From assembly GCF_008974285.1 (NCBI RefSeq), contig NZ_BKZV01000003.1:124001-188000 (forward strand): a stretch of DNA of 64,000 nucleotides, written 5' to 3'. Of this stretch, positions 26,594 to 34,871 are shown in pieces. Under the pieces are notes generated by a model that saw nothing but the letters and a program-made list of their open reading frames with translations, did not search any database and had not been told where the DNA came from. A program made the translations under genes and the position numbers. How positions within the stretch are numbered: position 1 is the first letter of the stretch; every line of letters starts with the position of its first letter. This stretch comes from Thermogemmatispora aurantia (GTDB lineage Bacteria > Chloroflexota > Ktedonobacteria > Ktedonobacterales > Ktedonobacteraceae).

Positions 26594-27589
26594 TTAGGAG
26601 ACCAGACCTTTGCGGCGCATTTGCTCCAGGTCGTCGCGCGCTGGCTCCAGAGGGCTGAGACCAGCCAGAGCACAGGCCCGTCCGATGAGAGCAAAGCCGA
26701 GCCGCAGGCCCTCGACGAGACGGGGAGGCTCGGCGGTCGCCAGCGCACTCAAGCAGGCTTGCTGCTGCTCAACGGCCTGCTCCTCGCCAACGGCCTGCTG
26801 GTAGCCTGCCAGCAGGGCCTGATGAGGCAGGAACTCCTCGTACGGCAATCGGTGGGTAGTAGCCAGCAGCAGCAGCCAGTAGCCGACCTGACTGCCCTCC
26901 AGGATGGTATCGGCCTGCAGATCCCGATGACGATGCGTTCCCTGGAGCACGCCCATCAGCTCCTGCAGCTCATCGGCCAGCCGCCCGAGGAGGTAGGTTG
27001 GACTGTGCTCCTGAAGCAGGCGCGAGGTGTGTGACTGCTCGCTCAGATCGTGGTCGCGCAGATACTGGTAAGCCGTGTAGAGCTGGCGCAGCAGCGTCTC
27101 CAGTTGCCTGCTTACGGCTTCGTCTGCCCCGGCCTTCCCTCCTCTACTCACCTCCTCCGGCGAGGCTTCCTGTTGGCTCTGCTGCAGGTCCGTCACCGGC
27201 TGCCTCTGCGGGGTAGAATGACCATAGACTGCCACCGGATCGAAGACCCGGCTCGCAACCACCTCGTAGCGATCGTCAGGAAGCAGACGGCGGTAGTAGC
27301 AGCTGCGATAGCCTTCATGGCAGGCTGCCCCACCCTCTTGGACGACGCGGATGAGCAGGCTATTCTCTTCGCAATTGACAAAGATGGCGCGCACCTGCTG
27401 CCTGTGCCCAGAGTGCTCGCCCTTGCGCCAGATCTTCTGGCGTGAGCGGCTATAGAAGTGGGTGTAGCCGGTTTCGCGCGTCAGGCGCAGAGCCTCCTCA
27501 TTCATGAAGGCCACCATCAGCACCTCATTGCTCTCATCATCCTGGATGACCGCTGGCATCAATCCCTGGCGGTCAAACCTGAGCGTCAT
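26594..27589 (-). CDS. hisI: HisI phosphoribosyl-AMP cyclohydrolase with divergent C-terminal domain
   Basis: The N-terminal 110 residues are PRA-cyclohydrolase (third step of histidine synthesis): [16 protein letters not shown], the Cys ligands C73, C90 and C97 ([10 protein letters not shown]), and VNCEEN (71-76) in place of the common DCDxD Mg motif. After a charged linker, residues about 155-290 form an all-helical domain with [14 protein letters not shown] and [14 protein letters not shown], which is reminiscent of the HisE/MazG fold but with an altered E-x-x-D signature. So it may be a HisIE bifunctional enzyme with a diverged pyrophosphatase half; that half is inference. It overlaps hisF by 4 bases (ATGA) and ends the operon. 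Confidence 0.85.
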
Positions 27590-28380
27590 TGCGCTTCTCC
27601 TCCTCTGCCTGCTTCATCCCAGCGCACAGCCACCCCGCGCTCGCGCAGGTAGCGCTTGGCATCGGCGATGCGGTACTGGCCAAAGTGAAAAATCGAAGCA
27701 GCGAGCACGGCATCGGCGCCCCCACTGATCAGCCCCTCATAGAGATGCTCAAGCGTTCCAACGCCGCCCGAAGCGATCACTGGTACGTTGACGGCCTGCG
27801 TGATGCGGGCTGTCAGGGTGAGATCATACCCCTGCTGCGTCCCATCGCGGTCCATGCTGGTCAGCAGGATCTCGCCCGCGCCCAGCTCGACGCCACGGCG
27901 GGCCCAATCGATAGCATCGAGGCCCGTTGGTGTACGGCCTCCATGAATGTAGACCTCGTAACCACTGGGCATGGCTGGATTGCTGCGGGCATCGATAGCG
28001 AGCACAATGCATTGGGAACCAAACTGTTCGGCTCCCTCGCGCAGCAGCTCGGGCTGCTGTACTGCCGCGGTATTCAGCGAGGTCTTATCAGCCCCCGCCC
28101 CCAGGGTGGCGCGAATGTCCTCCACGCTGCGGATGCCTCCGCCGACTGTCACCGGAATAAAGACCTGCTCAGCTGTTCGGGCGACCACATCGAGCATGGT
28201 CTTGCGTTGCTCATAGGAGGCCGTGATGTCGAGAAAGACCAGCTCATCTGCTCCCTCGGCGTTGTAGAAAGCCGCCAGCTCGACCGGGTCGCCGGCGTCG
28301 CGCAGGTTGAGGAAGTTCACCCCCTTTACGACGCGCCCCGCGGCTACATCCAGGCAGGGAATGATGCGTTTCGTTAACAT
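27586..28380 (-). CDS. hisF: Imidazole glycerol phosphate synthase, cyclase subunit
   Basis: HisF is the (beta/alpha)8 cyclase that takes ammonia from HisH and converts PRFAR to IGP and AICAR. Catalytic Asp residues are visible in [16 protein letters not shown] (Asp11) and in VLAIDARSN (about Asp130), and two phosphate-binding loops end in VTVGGGIRS and IASGGVGT. The 264-residue length is slightly longer than the usual 250-256. Its 3' end overlaps the hisI start, and hisA lies 40 bp upstream, so it belongs to the minus-strand his operon. Confidence 0.96.
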
Positions 28381-28420: not shown

Positions 28421-29179
28421 TCAGGCCCCGGACTCCGTCATCGGCTCGCAAGACGCGGCGCAGGCCAGGGCCGCCGTCAGGTCCACATCTCCCGTATAGA
28501 GGGCCTTCCCGATAATGACCCCCTCGACTCCCAGGCGAGCCAACGAGCGGATATCTTCCAATGAGCGCACTCCCCCGGAGGCGATCAAAGCCCGCGCGGG
28601 CCGGGCCTGTCTCACCACCTGCTGCATAGCCTGCAGCGCCTCCAGATTCGGCCCGCCCAGCGTTCCATCGCGTGCGATATCGGTGTAGATAAAGCGGGCC
28701 ACACCCAGCGCGCACAACTGGGCGGCCAGCTCCACGGCGGCAATGCGCTCCGTTTGCTGCCAGCCGGCCACCGCCACCAGGCCAGCTCGGGCATCCAATC
28801 CCACAGCGATACGCTCGCCCCAGCGCTGCAGCGCCTCAGCCAGCAAAGCAGGCTGCCGTACGGCGCTGGTCCCCAGCACCACGCGCTCAATACCAAGAGA
28901 GAGCACGTGCTCGATGCTGGTCAGATCGCGCAGGCCGCCGCCCAGCTCAATCTGTAGCGTGGTAGCGGCCCGAATCCGCTCGACAGTAGCCAGATTAACC
29001 GGCTGGCCCTGGGCCGCACCGTCCAGATCAACCAGATGCAGCCAGCGCGCCCCGGCCTCCTGCCAGCGCTGGGCCACCGCCACTGGGTCGTGGCTATAGA
29101 CCGTAGTCTGGCGGTAATCACCCTGGTAGAGACGGACGCAGCGCCCCTCGCGCAAATCAATGGCGGGCAAGACGATCAT
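28421..29179 (-). CDS. hisA: ProFAR isomerase
   Basis: HisA isomerises ProFAR to PRFAR. The (beta/alpha)8 sequence begins at ATG 29179 (MIVLPAIDLREGRCVRLYQGD), with the general base Asp in PAIDL and the second catalytic Asp in FIYTDIARDGTLGG. The start codon overlaps the hisH stop codon (ATGA), which fixes it despite an open frame running further upstream. The 252-residue length is typical. Confidence 0.96.
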   Translation of the reverse strand: MIVLPAIDLREGRCVRLYQGDYRQTTVYSHDPVAVAQRWQEAGARWLHLVDLDGAAQGQPVNLATVERIRAATTLQIELGGGLRDLTSIEHVLSLGIERVVLGTSAVRQPALLAEALQRWGERIAVGLDARAGLVAVAGWQQTERIAAVELAAQLCALGVARFIYTDIARDGTLGGPNLEALQAMQQVVRQARPARALIASGGVRSLEDIRSLARLGVEGVIIGKALYTGDVDLTAALACAASCEPMTESGA

Positions 29180-29793
29180 GGAACACGCTCCCCCACCCAG
29201 CGTACGAAGTTCGCCAGCAGGCGTAGCCCCATCGCTCCACTCTTCTCGGGATGGAACTGCGTTCCCCACAGGTGGTCACTGACAATGACGCTGCAATAGG
29301 GCGTGCCATAGTCGGTGACGGCAGCCACGCCAGAGGGATCACGCGGCTCAACATAATAAGAGTGAGCGAAGTAGAAGAAGGCCCCGGCAGGTATGCCTTT
29401 AAATAGAGGCAGGTCCGGGCGGAGGGGCTGGACCTGGTTCCAACCCATGTGTGGGATCTTCGGCCCCTGGGGAATACGCCGGACCTCACCGGCGAAGAGG
29501 CCTAAGCCCTCAACCTCGCCTTCCGCATGGTGTTCGGCCAGCAGTTGCATCCCGAGGCAGATGCCCAGGAACGGTCGCCCGCGGGCCGTAGCCTCCCGAA
29601 TAGCTTCATCGAGGCCGGTGGCCTTCAAACGCTGCATAGCGGCCCCGCCGGAGCCAACCCCTGGCAGCACCACTGCCCGCGCGCGTGCCACTGTGGCCGG
29701 ATCTGCAGTCACCGTGGCCTGCGCGCCGACATGCTCCAGGGCCTTCTGAATACTGCGGAGATTGCCAGCCCCGTAGTCAATAATAGCGATCAT
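29176..29793 (-). CDS. hisH: Imidazole glycerol phosphate synthase, glutaminase subunit
   Basis: HisH is the class I glutamine amidotransferase that feeds ammonia to HisF. The nucleophilic Cys is in FLGICLGMQLL, and the His-Glu pair is in GTQFHPEKSG. The oxyanion region GVGSGGAAM is conserved. The gene lies 76 bp after the HAD-APH fusion and is coupled to hisA by an ATGA overlap. The 205-residue length is normal. Confidence 0.96.
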   Translation of the reverse strand: MIAIIDYGAGNLRSIQKALEHVGAQATVTADPATVARARAVVLPGVGSGGAAMQRLKATGLDEAIREATARGRPFLGICLGMQLLAEHHAEGEVEGLGLFAGEVRRIPQGPKIPHMGWNQVQPLRPDLPLFKGIPAGAFFYFAHSYYVEPRDPSGVAAVTDYGTPYCSVIVSDHLWGTQFHPEKSGAMGLRLLANFVRWVGERVP

Positions 29794-29869: not shown

Positions 29870-32248
29870 TCAACCGCCGTCTACCAGGAGCTCATGCCAG
29901 GGCAGCAGGCCGAGATTGCCCAGTGTCACCGCCTGTGTCAGCCCCAGCCAGCAGACCGTTGCTGGGATGCGCCCGCGATCCAGGAGATTGATAGTCAGCA
30001 GCGGGCAGCAGAGCAGGGCCAGAGCCAGCCGGCGCTCCCAGTCGGCGGGCAAGGCCCCCTCATCCCTGAGCCAGGTGAGTAGGGGACGCAGCAAAGTGCG
30101 GAGCTTCGTTGTCAGAATCGCCTGACGGATGGGCGCTGGCTGATAGGTATGCGTGACCTCAAGCCGCTCGCCATCCCTGCCACGGCGCAGGGCTACGCTC
30201 AGCGTCAGGGCCTGAGCCGTCTCCCGAGGAAAGTACATCCAGCTGGCGAAAACATTGTGGTAGAGCGGCTTGACCACATCCAGCAGCGCTGCATGCCGAC
30301 CCGCAAAAGCCGGATCAAAGTAGAGATAGTCGCGTTCGTCCTCCAGGAAGACATTGCCGAAGTGGGCATCTCCGTGCCCGATGACTGTCAGCGCCGCCTG
30401 TCGCGGGTGGAGTCGGTTCTGGGCTTCCTCCAGCAGCTCCCCCAGCGTGCGCGAGAGCGCTTCCCCATTGACCACCCAGCGGCACCTGAGCAGATCCTCA
30501 AAGCGAATTTCTTCCTGATCAGAGCCGCCAGATCCTGGCAGCGGGATGGCCTGACCACGGTAGAAGCTGCTGAGACGCCCGCCGGTCAGTCGATGCCAGA
30601 AGAGCTGATGAACCGGCGCGGTGGCATGCTCATCCGCGCTGCTGAGACGCCCAGTGGCGCGGTAAATCTCCAGCAGGCGCTCACAGGCGCGGCGTTCGGC
30701 GGCCACCAGGGTCTGTGCTGGGACTGGGGAGGGTGCCCCCGTCTCGACAGCGCGCATCAAATCGAACATCACCGGCCAGCGCACCAGTGGATAAATGACC
30801 ATCTGGCGCCCCTCCTGGCGGACCACACGCAGAGGCAGCACCATGTTGTAGCCTGCCTCGTGCAGCAGCTCGGCATGGTAATACTCGGAGAGCGCACTTT
30901 GCTCCTCCACATGTGTCTTGAAAAAGTAGCGCTCGCCGTCCTGCTCGTAGGTACCGTTAAACGAATTCAGCGAGACAGGGCGCGGCGTCAGTGTCACCTG
31001 CCCGGTCAGCAGATCGAGCTGACGGGCGAACCACAGGCGCAGCAGACGCTCCGCCTTGTCGCGAGCCTCAAACTGCAGATGCTGGATCGTCTCCAGTCGC
31101 TCCACCTTGGCCAGCAGCGCAGGCAGCTGACGCACATCCTCAATCACAAAATCTGGCTCACAGGCCAGCAGGCGCCGCCGCGCCTCCTCACTGCGTGCTC
31201 CGCTGAGCGTCGCCACGGTCAAGGCGCCAGCGGCACGCCCGCCAAGCATATCCCCTGACGAATCGCCAACCACGATGAATGGAGGCTTGCTGCGCGCCAG
31301 CTCCTCGGCAGTGGGGCCGCGATGATCAAGGGCATAGAGAAACTGGAAGGGGTGGGGTTTGCTCAGCAAGGTGGTATCGCCCTGGCGCCGCAGCCCGGCC
31401 TCTGCCATCTCGACTGCATCATAGGTACAGATGTGTTCAGCCTCGAAGCACGAAAGCAGATCATAGGCTTGCAGCGGCAGCGCGGCCTCCTGATAGACTC
31501 GACCCGTAGCCAGACCCAGCTCATAGCCCGACCTCCGCAGGCTATCCAACGTCTCCCTGAGTGCCTCGGGAGGCAGCAATGGGCGCTCGAAATGGATACA
31601 GCCCGGTTTGCCCGTCTGAGCAGGAGGGTGGCCATAGGTACGGCTGTAGAGCGCCTCCCCAAGGTACCATTCCTGGAAAAGCGAGCGGCAGAAATCCCAA
31701 AAAGGGCTGAGGCGCGAAAATACTCCTTCGATGGGCAGACCCAACCTGGCGCTCGCGTAGGCATCGTAGCGATTGAGCAGATCCAGCCCCATGACGCCGG
31801 CGAAGAGCGTCTCAGCGAAGGGGGGTCCACTGGCCGTCAGGAGCACCGGCTCCTGGTCGGAAGCAGCGCGCCGGGCGGTCAGCGCCTGGCGCAGGCGGGC
31901 CAGCCAGACCTCTTCCCAGGGCTGCAGTGGCAGGAGCGGCTCGCGGTCGGCAGGAGACAGCTGCCCCAGCAGGGCAATCAGACGCCAGCAGACTGCCGCA
32001 TAGCAGGTGTCCCAGTTCGAGTTGATCGCCAGGGCCTTGTAGAGAAGAATCTCCTCCTCCGGCAGCGTGGCCCGGCTCAGGCGACGACTCTCCTCGGGGT
32101 CGGTCACCGGCGCGTAGTCGCCCTGACCTGTCACATTCCAGTAGCGGGGGCTGTAGAGTAGCTCATGCAAGGTCAGACCCGCCGCGTCCCAGTAGGCCTC
32201 TTCGCTGGTAATGACTCCATCTAAATCAAAGACAATCAGCGTCTTCAC
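29870..32248 (-). CDS. HAD phosphatase-APH kinase fusion in the his operon
   Basis: The 792-residue protein joins two phosphoryl-transfer folds. Residues 1-400 are a HAD hydrolase: DLDGVIT (D8 and D10), LATGR near 245, the motif III Lys in SKPHPFQFL, and GDSSGDMLGG near 330, with a very large insertion between motifs I and II. Residues about 430-760 are an APH/choline-kinase-like domain with VIGHGDAHFGNVF (His625, Asp627, Asn632) and FDPAFAG (Asp645), so both active sites look intact. The GTG start overlaps the hisG stop codon (GTGA), and hisH follows after 76 bp. No hisB or hisN gene is seen in the window, so the HAD half could dephosphorylate histidinol phosphate; the kinase substrate is unknown. 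Confidence 0.85.
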   Translation of the reverse strand: MKTLIVFDLDGVITSEEAYWDAAGLTLHELLYSPRYWNVTGQGDYAPVTDPEESRRLSRATLPEEEILLYKALAINSNWDTCYAAVCWRLIALLGQLSPADREPLLPLQPWEEVWLARLRQALTARRAASDQEPVLLTASGPPFAETLFAGVMGLDLLNRYDAYASARLGLPIEGVFSRLSPFWDFCRSLFQEWYLGEALYSRTYGHPPAQTGKPGCIHFERPLLPPEALRETLDSLRRSGYELGLATGRVYQEAALPLQAYDLLSCFEAEHICTYDAVEMAEAGLRRQGDTTLLSKPHPFQFLYALDHRGPTAEELARSKPPFIVVGDSSGDMLGGRAAGALTVATLSGARSEEARRRLLACEPDFVIEDVRQLPALLAKVERLETIQHLQFEARDKAERLLRLWFARQLDLLTGQVTLTPRPVSLNSFNGTYEQDGERYFFKTHVEEQSALSEYYHAELLHEAGYNMVLPLRVVRQEGRQMVIYPLVRWPVMFDLMRAVETGAPSPVPAQTLVAAERRACERLLEIYRATGRLSSADEHATAPVHQLFWHRLTGGRLSSFYRGQAIPLPGSGGSDQEEIRFEDLLRCRWVVNGEALSRTLGELLEEAQNRLHPRQAALTVIGHGDAHFGNVFLEDERDYLYFDPAFAGRHAALLDVVKPLYHNVFASWMYFPRETAQALTLSVALRRGRDGERLEVTHTYQPAPIRQAILTTKLRTLLRPLLTWLRDEGALPADWERRLALALLCCPLLTINLLDRGRIPATVCWLGLTQAVTLGNLGLLPWHELLVDGG

Positions 32249-33336
32249 CGTCGTCGCGCCATCCTCTCGCTCAACTGCCGCAGGCTGGCCGGTTCCTGGC
32301 CGAAACGGTACGCCAGCGGCGTCACGTCGATCTGCTCGGCCCCCACGCTGCGCAGAGCGGTGATGATCTCCAGCAAGTCCGCCACGGCCTCACCCATGCG
32401 AATCACCCCCGAGACGCGGCAGCGCTGGGCCTGTGGATCGTCCGTCGACTCCGAGCTGCCAATATGGTACTCGAATCCTGGGACTAACCGCTTGAGGTGC
32501 ATGCTCAACAATGAACTGACCTCTTCACCACTTCCCGGCACATAGGCCGTCAGCAGAACGCGGTTGCGCGCCTGCAGGCGGGCGGTGATCAGTTCCAAAA
32601 GCAGGCGGGCGACCTTGAGAGCCTGGGGATGCTCGGCCAGCAGGCGCACGTTGCCGATCAGACACGCCTGGGAGCGCAGTACAATACCGTCTTCAAGCAG
32701 TTTCAGATGGTTTTCACGCAAGGTCGTGCCCGTTTCCGTCAGGTCGACGATCAAATCGGCGACCCCCGTCAGGGGTGCGGCCTCCAAGGCCCCGTGTGGC
32801 ATCACGATCCGGCAGTGAGAAATGCCGTAGCGGCGTAGAAAGCGCCGCGTCAAAGCCGGGTACTTGGTGGCGATGCGTAGCCCCCGGCCCTTCTGGGCCT
32901 GATAGTAGCCCGCCAGATGCCAGAGATCAGCGCACGTATTGACATCGATCCAGGTCTCGGGCACCGCCACCACCAGTCGGCAGGAGCCGTAACCGAGATC
33001 ACGCTCCAACACCATCAGATCGTCATCGCTCTCCTCATTTTCCTCCGCCTCTTCATCGGTCCCGCGGTACTCGGCGAAGAGGTCGTAGCCCGTGATCCCG
33101 AGAATGGCGTCCCCATCGTGCACCAGGGCTGGGATGTCTGCGGCACGCTGAAAGACCACCTCCAGCTCCGGTAGGCTGCTGATGCGCGCCAGATACTGAC
33201 GCGGATTGCTGCGCTGGACCTTGAGACCACACTCGGCGAGAAAGGTTAGCGTGGCCGCCTCCAGCGTTCCCTTCCCAGGCAAGGCCAGGCGCAGCTGGGG
33301 CAATTCTGGGGCCGGAGCCATTCGCGACGCGCTCAT
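32245..33336 (-). CDS. hisG: ATP phosphoribosyltransferase, long form
   Basis: HisG catalyses the first step of histidine synthesis from ATP and PRPP. The catalytic domains show LRLALPGKGTL, DAILGITGYDLFAEY, DLGYGSCRLVVAVP and the PRPP loop DLTETGTTLREN. A C-terminal portion of about 75 residues (LLTAYVPGSGEEVSS to GAEQIDVTPLAYRFG) resembles the ACT-like regulatory domain of long HisG, which binds histidine, so no HisZ partner should be needed. An acidic insert, DEEAEENEESDD, sits near residue 100 and is unusual. It is translationally coupled to hisS upstream and to the HAD-APH gene downstream. Confidence 0.94.
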   Translation of the reverse strand: MSASRMAPAPELPQLRLALPGKGTLEAATLTFLAECGLKVQRSNPRQYLARISSLPELEVVFQRAADIPALVHDGDAILGITGYDLFAEYRGTDEEAEENEESDDDLMVLERDLGYGSCRLVVAVPETWIDVNTCADLWHLAGYYQAQKGRGLRIATKYPALTRRFLRRYGISHCRIVMPHGALEAAPLTGVADLIVDLTETGTTLRENHLKLLEDGIVLRSQACLIGNVRLLAEHPQALKVARLLLELITARLQARNRVLLTAYVPGSGEEVSSLLSMHLKRLVPGFEYHIGSSESTDDPQAQRCRVSGVIRMGEAVADLLEIITALRSVGAEQIDVTPLAYRFGQEPASLRQLSERMARRR

Positions 33337-34871
33337 GCTCGATCCCCTCCTTCCCGTAGGGCCACGGCCAGGTCACGGTAAGTAACCAGGCGTTCCTTCC
33401 CCGAGAGCAGATCATGCAGCCTGATCGTGTTGGCCTGGCGTTCCTCCTCACCGACGATCAGAGCCAGCCGGAAGCCGCGCTGGGAAGCCTGGCGCAGAGC
33501 ATTACTGACTCCACGGGCGTTCACATCTAGCTCTGCGATGATGCCGCCCTCGCTGCGGGCCAGGCGCGCCACATGGCAGGCATAGGCCAGATCATGCTTG
33601 CCAACCGGGATCACCAGTGCCTGCGTCCGCCCAGGCTGATGCCACTGGCTGGCAGGCATCGAAGAGATGAGTCGCTCCAGGCCAAAGGCGAAACCGCACG
33701 CGCGCACTCCGCGCGTCCCCCCGACTGCCTCGACGAGATGGTCATAGCGTCCTCCGCCGCACAACTGCAGGTCGAGGCCCTCCTCATCGCTGGCATGGAT
33801 CTCGAAGAGCAAGCCCGTATAGTAACTCACCCCGCGCCCCAGGGCCAGATTGAGCGTAATCTGCCGGCGGTCAACCCCTGTCACCTCCATCAGCGTGGTC
33901 ACCAATTGCTCTAGCTCCTCCAGCGGGTCGTCATCAAGCTGATAGCTTTGGAGCAATTGGCGCAGCTCCTGAAAAACTTCGGGCGGTGGGCCGGCCAGCG
34001 CCCGCAGCCGGCGCAGAAACTCCAGCGCGCTAAAGACCAGCGCCCGCTGCTCACTGCGCCCAATCTTCCAGAGAAAGCGCTCGACAATCTCACGGCGGCT
34101 GTCCTCGTCGCCGAATGGCAGGCTGAAGCTGTTCAGGAGTGCTGCCACCAGCTGGTTCGAACCATCGGAGCTGGCCAGGCGCCGCCCTCGAGCGGCCTCA
34201 GCTGCCGGCAGCGAGGGAGTGAGCGACCGCTCGGGATAGAGCGCCTCCAGACGGGCCTGTGCCGCCTGCTCTCCCTCTGGGGAACGACTGATCTGCTCCA
34301 TCAGGCTCAGGAGCAGACGTGCTGTCTGAACATCCAGATGCAGGCGCTCGATAAAGCCGCTGGCGACCCCGACATGGCCCAGCTCAAGACGGTAACGGGT
34401 GATGCCCAGTTCATGCAAAATATCGCAAGCCAGCTGCACGATTTCGCCATCGGCGCGCAGCGGTTGGCCGCCAAAGAGCTCGACCCCCAGCTGCGTGTGC
34501 TGCCGGTAGCGTCCCCGTCCCGGCGCCTCGTAGCGGAAGACTGGTCCGACGTACTGAAAGCGCAACGGCAGCGGGGACTGCTGATAATGTTCTAAATAGA
34601 GACGGCAGATTGAGGCGGTATATTCCGGTCTTAGACACAATTCGCGTTGGTGGAGCTGGAAGGCATAGAGGTTCTGCCAGGCCTCTTGACCGAAGCTCGC
34701 CTGGAAGAGGTCGCTGCGCTCCAGCGCCGGCGTATCCACCGGATCGTAGCCGGCCTTCTCCAACAGAGCGCGCACGCGATCCACCACCTGCGACTGCCGA
34801 CGGTAGGCCTCGGGCAGCACATCATGCATCCCGCGCAGGCGCTCGATACGCTTCTTCATAGCAACTCTCAT
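33333..34871 (-). CDS. hisS: Histidyl-tRNA synthetase
   Basis: This class II synthetase-fold protein has 512 residues. Motif 2 (GPVFRYEAPGRGRYRQHTQLGVE), the HisRS-specific GRGVSYYTGLLFE, the GGGRYDHL loop and motif 3 (GFAFGLERLI) are present. A C-terminal anticodon-binding domain (about residues 415-505, ALVIPVGKHDLAYAC onward) argues for a true HisRS rather than the HisZ regulatory subunit, which lacks it. About 80 residues longer than bacterial HisRS, it has an expanded middle insertion (about 200-320). It is coupled to hisG by ATGA. ATG 34859 (MKKRIERLRGMHD) is an alternative start. Confidence 0.88.
   Translation of the reverse strand: MRVAMKKRIERLRGMHDVLPEAYRRQSQVVDRVRALLEKAGYDPVDTPALERSDLFQASFGQEAWQNLYAFQLHQRELCLRPEYTASICRLYLEHYQQSPLPLRFQYVGPVFRYEAPGRGRYRQHTQLGVELFGGQPLRADGEIVQLACDILHELGITRYRLELGHVGVASGFIERLHLDVQTARLLLSLMEQISRSPEGEQAAQARLEALYPERSLTPSLPAAEAARGRRLASSDGSNQLVAALLNSFSLPFGDEDSRREIVERFLWKIGRSEQRALVFSALEFLRRLRALAGPPPEVFQELRQLLQSYQLDDDPLEELEQLVTTLMEVTGVDRRQITLNLALGRGVSYYTGLLFEIHASDEEGLDLQLCGGGRYDHLVEAVGGTRGVRACGFAFGLERLISSMPASQWHQPGRTQALVIPVGKHDLAYACHVARLARSEGGIIAELDVNARGVSNALRQASQRGFRLALIVGEEERQANTIRLHDLLSGKERLVTYRDLAVALREGGDRA

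Follow-up and report, generated by a model that had tools for sequence, protein, structure and literature searches.

A HAD-APH fusion gene occupies the place of hisB in Ktedonobacteraceae and may replace it in histidine biosynthesis

Results

A HAD-APH fusion gene within the his operon

We have analysed a 64,000-nucleotide stretch of the Thermogemmatispora aurantia genome (genome G000, 5.6 Mb; contig NZ_BKZV01000003.1, positions 124,001 to 188,000), referred to here as the window. It carries a his operon on the reverse strand with the gene order argC, argB, hisZ-like, hisG, HAD-APH, hisH, hisA, hisF and hisI-like, as assigned from Pfam and NCBIfam matches and comparison with relatives; the identities of argC and argB in the window were taken from their own sequences. 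The features are as follows.

33333..34871, reverse strand: hisZ-like (HisRS-like) gene, from Pfam and NCBIfam
32245..33336, reverse strand: hisG (PF01634, E 2.4e-40; TIGR00070)
32245..32248, reverse strand: GTGA shared by the hisG stop and the start codon of the fusion, from the sequence
29870..32248, reverse strand: HAD-APH fusion gene, 792 aa; proposed HisB replacement
31103..32248, reverse strand: HAD half (residues 1-382) with a large cap domain, from PF00702 and the 1qyi profile and fold; proposed histidinol-phosphate phosphatase
29870..31102, reverse strand: APH kinase half (residues 383-792), from fold, invariant kinase residues and stand-alone homologues; proposed ATP-dependent IGP dehydratase replacement
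29176..29793, reverse strand: hisH (PF00117, E 7.4e-24), adjoining the fusion in 25 of 27 genomes
28421..29191, reverse strand: hisA (PF00977, E 8.4e-79)
27586..28380, reverse strand: hisF (TIGR00735, E 1.6e-115)
26594..27589, reverse strand: hisI (PF01502, E 6.3e-30) with an unusual C-terminal domain where HisE is expected, PRA-PH being unmatched

The fusion open reading frame begins with a GTG codon within the GTGA that it shares with the hisG stop, and its own stop codon is separated from the hisH ATG by 76 bp, in agreement with an initial annotation of this locus made from the sequence alone. A scan for promoters and terminators gave no signal above chance. The reading frame is not a chance one, because homologues with 52-96% identity are present in 27 of the 29 Ktedonobacteraceae genomes (family f1) and dN/dS within the genus is 0.10-0.16 for the HAD half and the APH half alike; the protein is under strong purifying selection.

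Fold and catalytic residues of the two halves

The initial annotation recommended that the halves be searched separately, and these searches lead to PF00702 and 1qyi for the HAD half and, by fold, to APH kinases for the other. The HAD half matches PF00702 (E 1e-10) and has the fold and the motifs of the HAD superfamily (the DxD of motif I, Thr/Ser of motif II, Lys of motif III and the acidic pair of motif IV), with D8, D10, T248, K297, D329 and D333 invariant in 20 proteins of the fusion family. It matches the Staphylococcus aureus HAD protein 1qyi (Q8NW41) over its full length, with a profile E-value of 3.7e-56 and a TM-score of 0.78 on the target for the AlphaFold model, although the S. aureus protein stands alone and has no assigned function. 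NCBIfam returns only HAD-IA-type families, all below cut-off, with the HisB model absent among the matches, and judged by such profiles the HAD half is not a HisB-type N-terminal histidinol-phosphatase domain. Nor does the protein belong to the HisN (inositol-monophosphatase) type, as it consists of HAD and APH parts and the PF00459 fold is absent.

The APH half is recognised mainly by structure. Its Pfam match is below threshold (E 0.017), with one homologue from the Chloroflexota family f70 passing the cut-off, and an APH-profile search of PDB sequences found no match, but a Foldseek search of the whole-protein AlphaFold model (mean pLDDT 86.5) places it with the APH(3') and APH(9) aminoglycoside kinases. 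The kinase fold is accompanied by the ATP lysine (K444), the HGDxHxxN loop (H625, D627, H629 and N632) and the metal-binding aspartate (D645), all invariant in the Ktedonobacteraceae fusions. R553, R558, R708 and K715 of this half are invariant as well and are candidates for holding the substrate. The initial annotation described two seemingly intact active sites, and the invariance of all HAD and APH catalytic residues in the family bears this out. Pfam searches of the protein found neither an IGPD domain (PF00475) nor an acyl-CoA dehydrogenase domain, and nothing follows the APH half in the protein.

Loss of hisB in Ktedonobacteraceae

None of the 29 Ktedonobacteraceae genomes has a credible PF00475 match (best E-values 0.1-0.8), and a control search was positive in 13 of 14 reference genomes. 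An assembly artefact or a hidden hisB was considered and rejected, as six-frame searches of T. aurantia and its relatives, of which several are near-complete or in a single contig, gave no IGPD match. In the same family 28 of 29 genomes retain hisD, and the curated cut-off for hisC is exceeded in T. aurantia and in most of the genomes tested. As read from gene content, the steps on either side of IGP dehydration are retained and the known dehydratase is lost. The initial annotation, which focused on a missing histidinol phosphatase, overlooked this larger gap: the dehydratase HisB is missing genome-wide, and the fusion sits in its operon slot.

Two genomic findings that this annotation took as telling against its reading, a canonical hisB elsewhere and relatives in which the fusion is separated from his genes, did not appear: no hisB is present anywhere in the genome, and across the family the fusion adjoins his genes. 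In 25 of the 27 genomes hisH follows it directly, including those of genera g7, g10 and g12, where argB rather than hisG is upstream and the hisH link is kept. Genus g3 is different: in its two genomes the fusion comes after hisG, and hisH is absent from the downstream stretch seen. Contig ends truncate one of the 27 genes, and in Dictyobacter kobayashii the fusion is present as two adjacent open reading frames, reflecting either a natural split or a frameshift. Both fusion-less genomes (G010 and G015) also lack hisA, and hisF is missing in G010 and a remnant in G015, so that the fate of the fusion tracks that of the pathway. At the G015 locus (L176:9593-11900), hisI and hisD lie beside the truncated hisF in what has the form of a decaying his operon, with hisA, intact hisF and the fusion lost.

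No fusion homologues were found in other families of the order. Among 18 genomes of these families (G029-G046), neither hisB nor hisD is present in 16, which are probably histidine auxotrophs. The other two, G030 and G036, have both genes, in operons arranged as hisG-[hisD-hisB fusion]-hisH-hisA-hisF-hisI and hisG-[hisD-hisC fusion]-hisB-hisH-hisA-hisF-hisI. As hisB stands directly before hisH in these order-mates, just as the HAD-APH gene does in Ktedonobacteraceae, the latter occupies the hisB slot.

The phosphatase step was considered in the same genomes. Histidinol phosphatase is the commonest gap in automated annotation (PMC7311316). PF00459, which covers the HisN/inositol-phosphatase superfamily, has no match in three Thermogemmatispora genomes. 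For this genus, the case made in the initial annotation for the HAD half as the missing histidinol phosphatase is thus strengthened, although other Ktedonobacteraceae genera do have PF00459 proteins, and the HAD half is probably a histidinol-phosphate phosphatase.

A second hisB-less lineage

A scan of 84,980 species together with a phylum sample revealed stand-alone APH homologues, 41-46% identical to the APH half, in family f70 with the related records OLB13 and J038, and in a single Nocardia. The Chloroflexota genes lie directly after hisD, with a 4 bp ATGA overlap in two f70 genomes, and converge on hisG-hisZ in three of the four loci read. The PF00475 search found no hisB in the f70-group genomes that carry them. 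In contrast to Thermogemmatispora, these genomes, in which the APH is not joined to a HAD half, have HisN-like proteins scoring below the NCBIfam cut-offs. Searching f70 and Nocardia for relatives of that half gave weak, generic HAD matches, none of them close.

In a sample of 400 Chloroflexota genomes with completeness of at least 85%, hisB is present in 294 (typically E 1e-50 or better) and the APH gene in 26, with an overlap of zero. Among the 331 genomes with hisD, APH is found in 26 of 40 that lack hisB versus none of 291 that have it, a pattern that represents a contrast of two lineages and not 26 independent events, so that no weight is given to a Fisher test on these counts. The 14 genomes with hisD and neither hisB nor APH speak against the replacement; two are explained by loss of hisA/hisF and the others are mostly drafts. 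In G058, a genome in which both hisB and APH are missing, hisD is less than 1 kb from a contig end, and a hidden hisB is possible. The relative in Nocardia colli (L139:5962-9035) overlaps a HAD-HisC fusion, and we treat it as context only because it has no ATP-binding lysine and the genome carries its own hisB.

More distant APH relatives linked to HisD

Plasmids of Sinorhizobium, Rhizobium, Shinella, Klebsiella, Pantoea and others encode more distant relatives that are 34-38% identical to the APH half and have the same kinase motifs. A HisD-family gene is in the same cluster at all seven loci read (L207-L213, from rhizobia, Klebsiella, Pantoea and Paroceanicella), together with alcohol dehydrogenases (Zn-ADH), SDR proteins, transporters and HutC-type regulators, and these clusters probably encode a catabolic pathway. 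The arrangement recalls the HpsNOP set for dihydroxypropanesulfonate (PMC11131964). In the APH tree the Ktedonobacteraceae, f70 and Nocardia proteins group together with support of 0.99, whereas the plasmid relatives form a separate branch. Since phyla that possess hisB carry these homologues in clusters of catabolic appearance, the family is not confined to histidine. It seems instead to be tied to HisD-type metabolism generally, which weakens an exclusive claim on IGP and would fit kinases acting on short polyols.

Discussion

Comparative sequence evidence of four kinds (the absence of hisB, the shared operon slot, the co-loss with the pathway and the second lineage) makes replacement of hisB by the fusion gene a well supported interpretation. 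hisB has been lost across Ktedonobacteraceae, a family of soil and hot-spring bacteria, and the fusion in its place may do the same job by a new, ATP-driven chemistry. The bifunctional HisB of Escherichia coli and Salmonella consists of a HAD histidinol phosphatase and an IGP dehydratase. The fusion resembles it in combining an N-terminal HAD phosphatase with a second enzyme in a his operon, and the same two steps are those missing here, but its HAD half is of another subfamily (HAD-IA-like, with a large cap) and an APH kinase stands where E. coli HisB has its IGPD domain. We consider the chances evenly balanced that HAD-APH is the Ktedonobacteraceae counterpart of bifunctional HisB assembled from unrelated parts, with the HAD half responsible for step 8 and the APH half for an ATP-driven step 6. 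More tentatively, the APH kinase could be the first non-homologous IGP dehydratase, acting by phosphorylation and elimination in place of a HisB that is otherwise universal, fused to HAD in Ktedonobacteraceae and standing alone in a second Chloroflexota family, and constituting one branch of a wider group of HisD-associated kinases whose substrates may be vicinal diols. The initial annotation proposed that the APH half could phosphorylate a small alcohol or act as a regulator; the half is better read as an IGP dehydratase replacement because the dehydratase HisB is absent genome-wide and the fusion takes its slot. A generic regulator or passenger gene was rejected as a first choice on account of the conserved slot, the co-loss and the purifying selection.

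In the known pathway HisB dehydrates imidazole-glycerol phosphate (IGP) and the resulting enol ketonises without an enzyme (PMC3896937). In the proposed mechanism the APH half would, with ATP, phosphorylate IGP on the hydroxyl adjacent to its imidazole ring, and ring-assisted expulsion of that phosphate followed by loss of a proton would give the enol. The enol would then yield imidazole-acetol phosphate, completing step 6 by an ATP-driven elimination instead of the usual dehydration, with the elimination either carried out by the kinase site, which would perform both steps, or occurring spontaneously. The HAD half would subsequently dephosphorylate histidinol phosphate in step 8. We infer phosphorylation and elimination at IGP from chemistry; there is precedent in LvaA/LvaC and ACAD10/11, in which an APH-type kinase phosphorylates a hydroxyl and the phosphate is then eliminated (PMC11342911, PMC12440821). 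The elimination in those systems is performed by an acyl-CoA dehydrogenase (PMC11342911, PMC12440821), and it counts against the proposed mechanism that the kinase-elimination systems known so far rely on a lyase domain of their own, no counterpart of which is seen here. In the part of the literature that our search covered, HisB is treated as the sole enzyme of step 6, no alternative, non-orthologous or missing IGPD is described, and nothing relevant was found on hisB with Ktedonobacter.

There are several other explanations to consider. It is conceivable, although unlikely, that the HAD half acts as histidinol phosphatase and the APH half regulates or otherwise primes the pathway, with step 6 performed by an enzyme encoded elsewhere. 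The full catalytic set of the HAD half and the lack of HisN in Thermogemmatispora agree with this, as do the want of a known lyase partner for APH and the distant relatives in clusters that do not look like histidine clusters. It does not account well for f70, where a stand-alone APH gene overlaps hisD and is likewise restricted to genomes without hisB, or for the fact that the operon slot of the fusion is that of hisB, and no further unassigned gene is seen in the Ktedonobacteraceae operon. A different proposal draws on ACAD10 (HAD-APH-ACAD), which has the same order of a HAD followed by an APH-type kinase and whose HAD restrains the kinase (PMC11342911), the likeness being at the level of shared fold; by analogy, the HAD half would restrain the kinase or remove its product, and the protein would handle a side metabolite of the pathway and catalyse neither missing step. 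This is improbable, as the ACAD10 HAD lacks one aspartate of the DxD, whereas both are invariant in the fusion, and the absence of hisB would be left unexplained. The fusion also differs from ACAD10 in having no acyl-CoA dehydrogenase domain and in its his operon setting. The least probable of these explanations is that there is no gap at all, either through these bacteria not making histidine or through a very divergent IGPD having been missed. Profile searches can miss extreme divergence, and a search of part of the literature found no evidence on histidine prototrophy of Ktedonobacteria. However, PF00475 readily detects IGPD in the Chloroflexota sample, the his operon is intact with its fusion under purifying selection, and no other family of the order is seen to have given up hisB alone, these having lost hisB and hisD together.

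If HAD-APH does replace HisB, a textbook reaction would have a new, kinase-based solution. The replacement would also account for the gap in histidine synthesis across an entire bacterial family, and a kinase family now annotated as 'hypothetical' would gain a function.

Two other genes of the operon have features worth describing. The protein at the hisZ position (33333-34871, reverse strand) has an NCBIfam score above the hisS cut-off and just below that for hisZ, and may be either HisZ or a functional HisRS. The hisI product (26594-27589, reverse strand) has a C-terminal extension of about 200 aa in which a Pfam search found no PRA-PH (HisE) match and whose AlphaFold model weakly resembles dimeric dUTPases. 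This domain may represent a second replaced step, that of HisE, and it is present also in the hisB-bearing order-mates.
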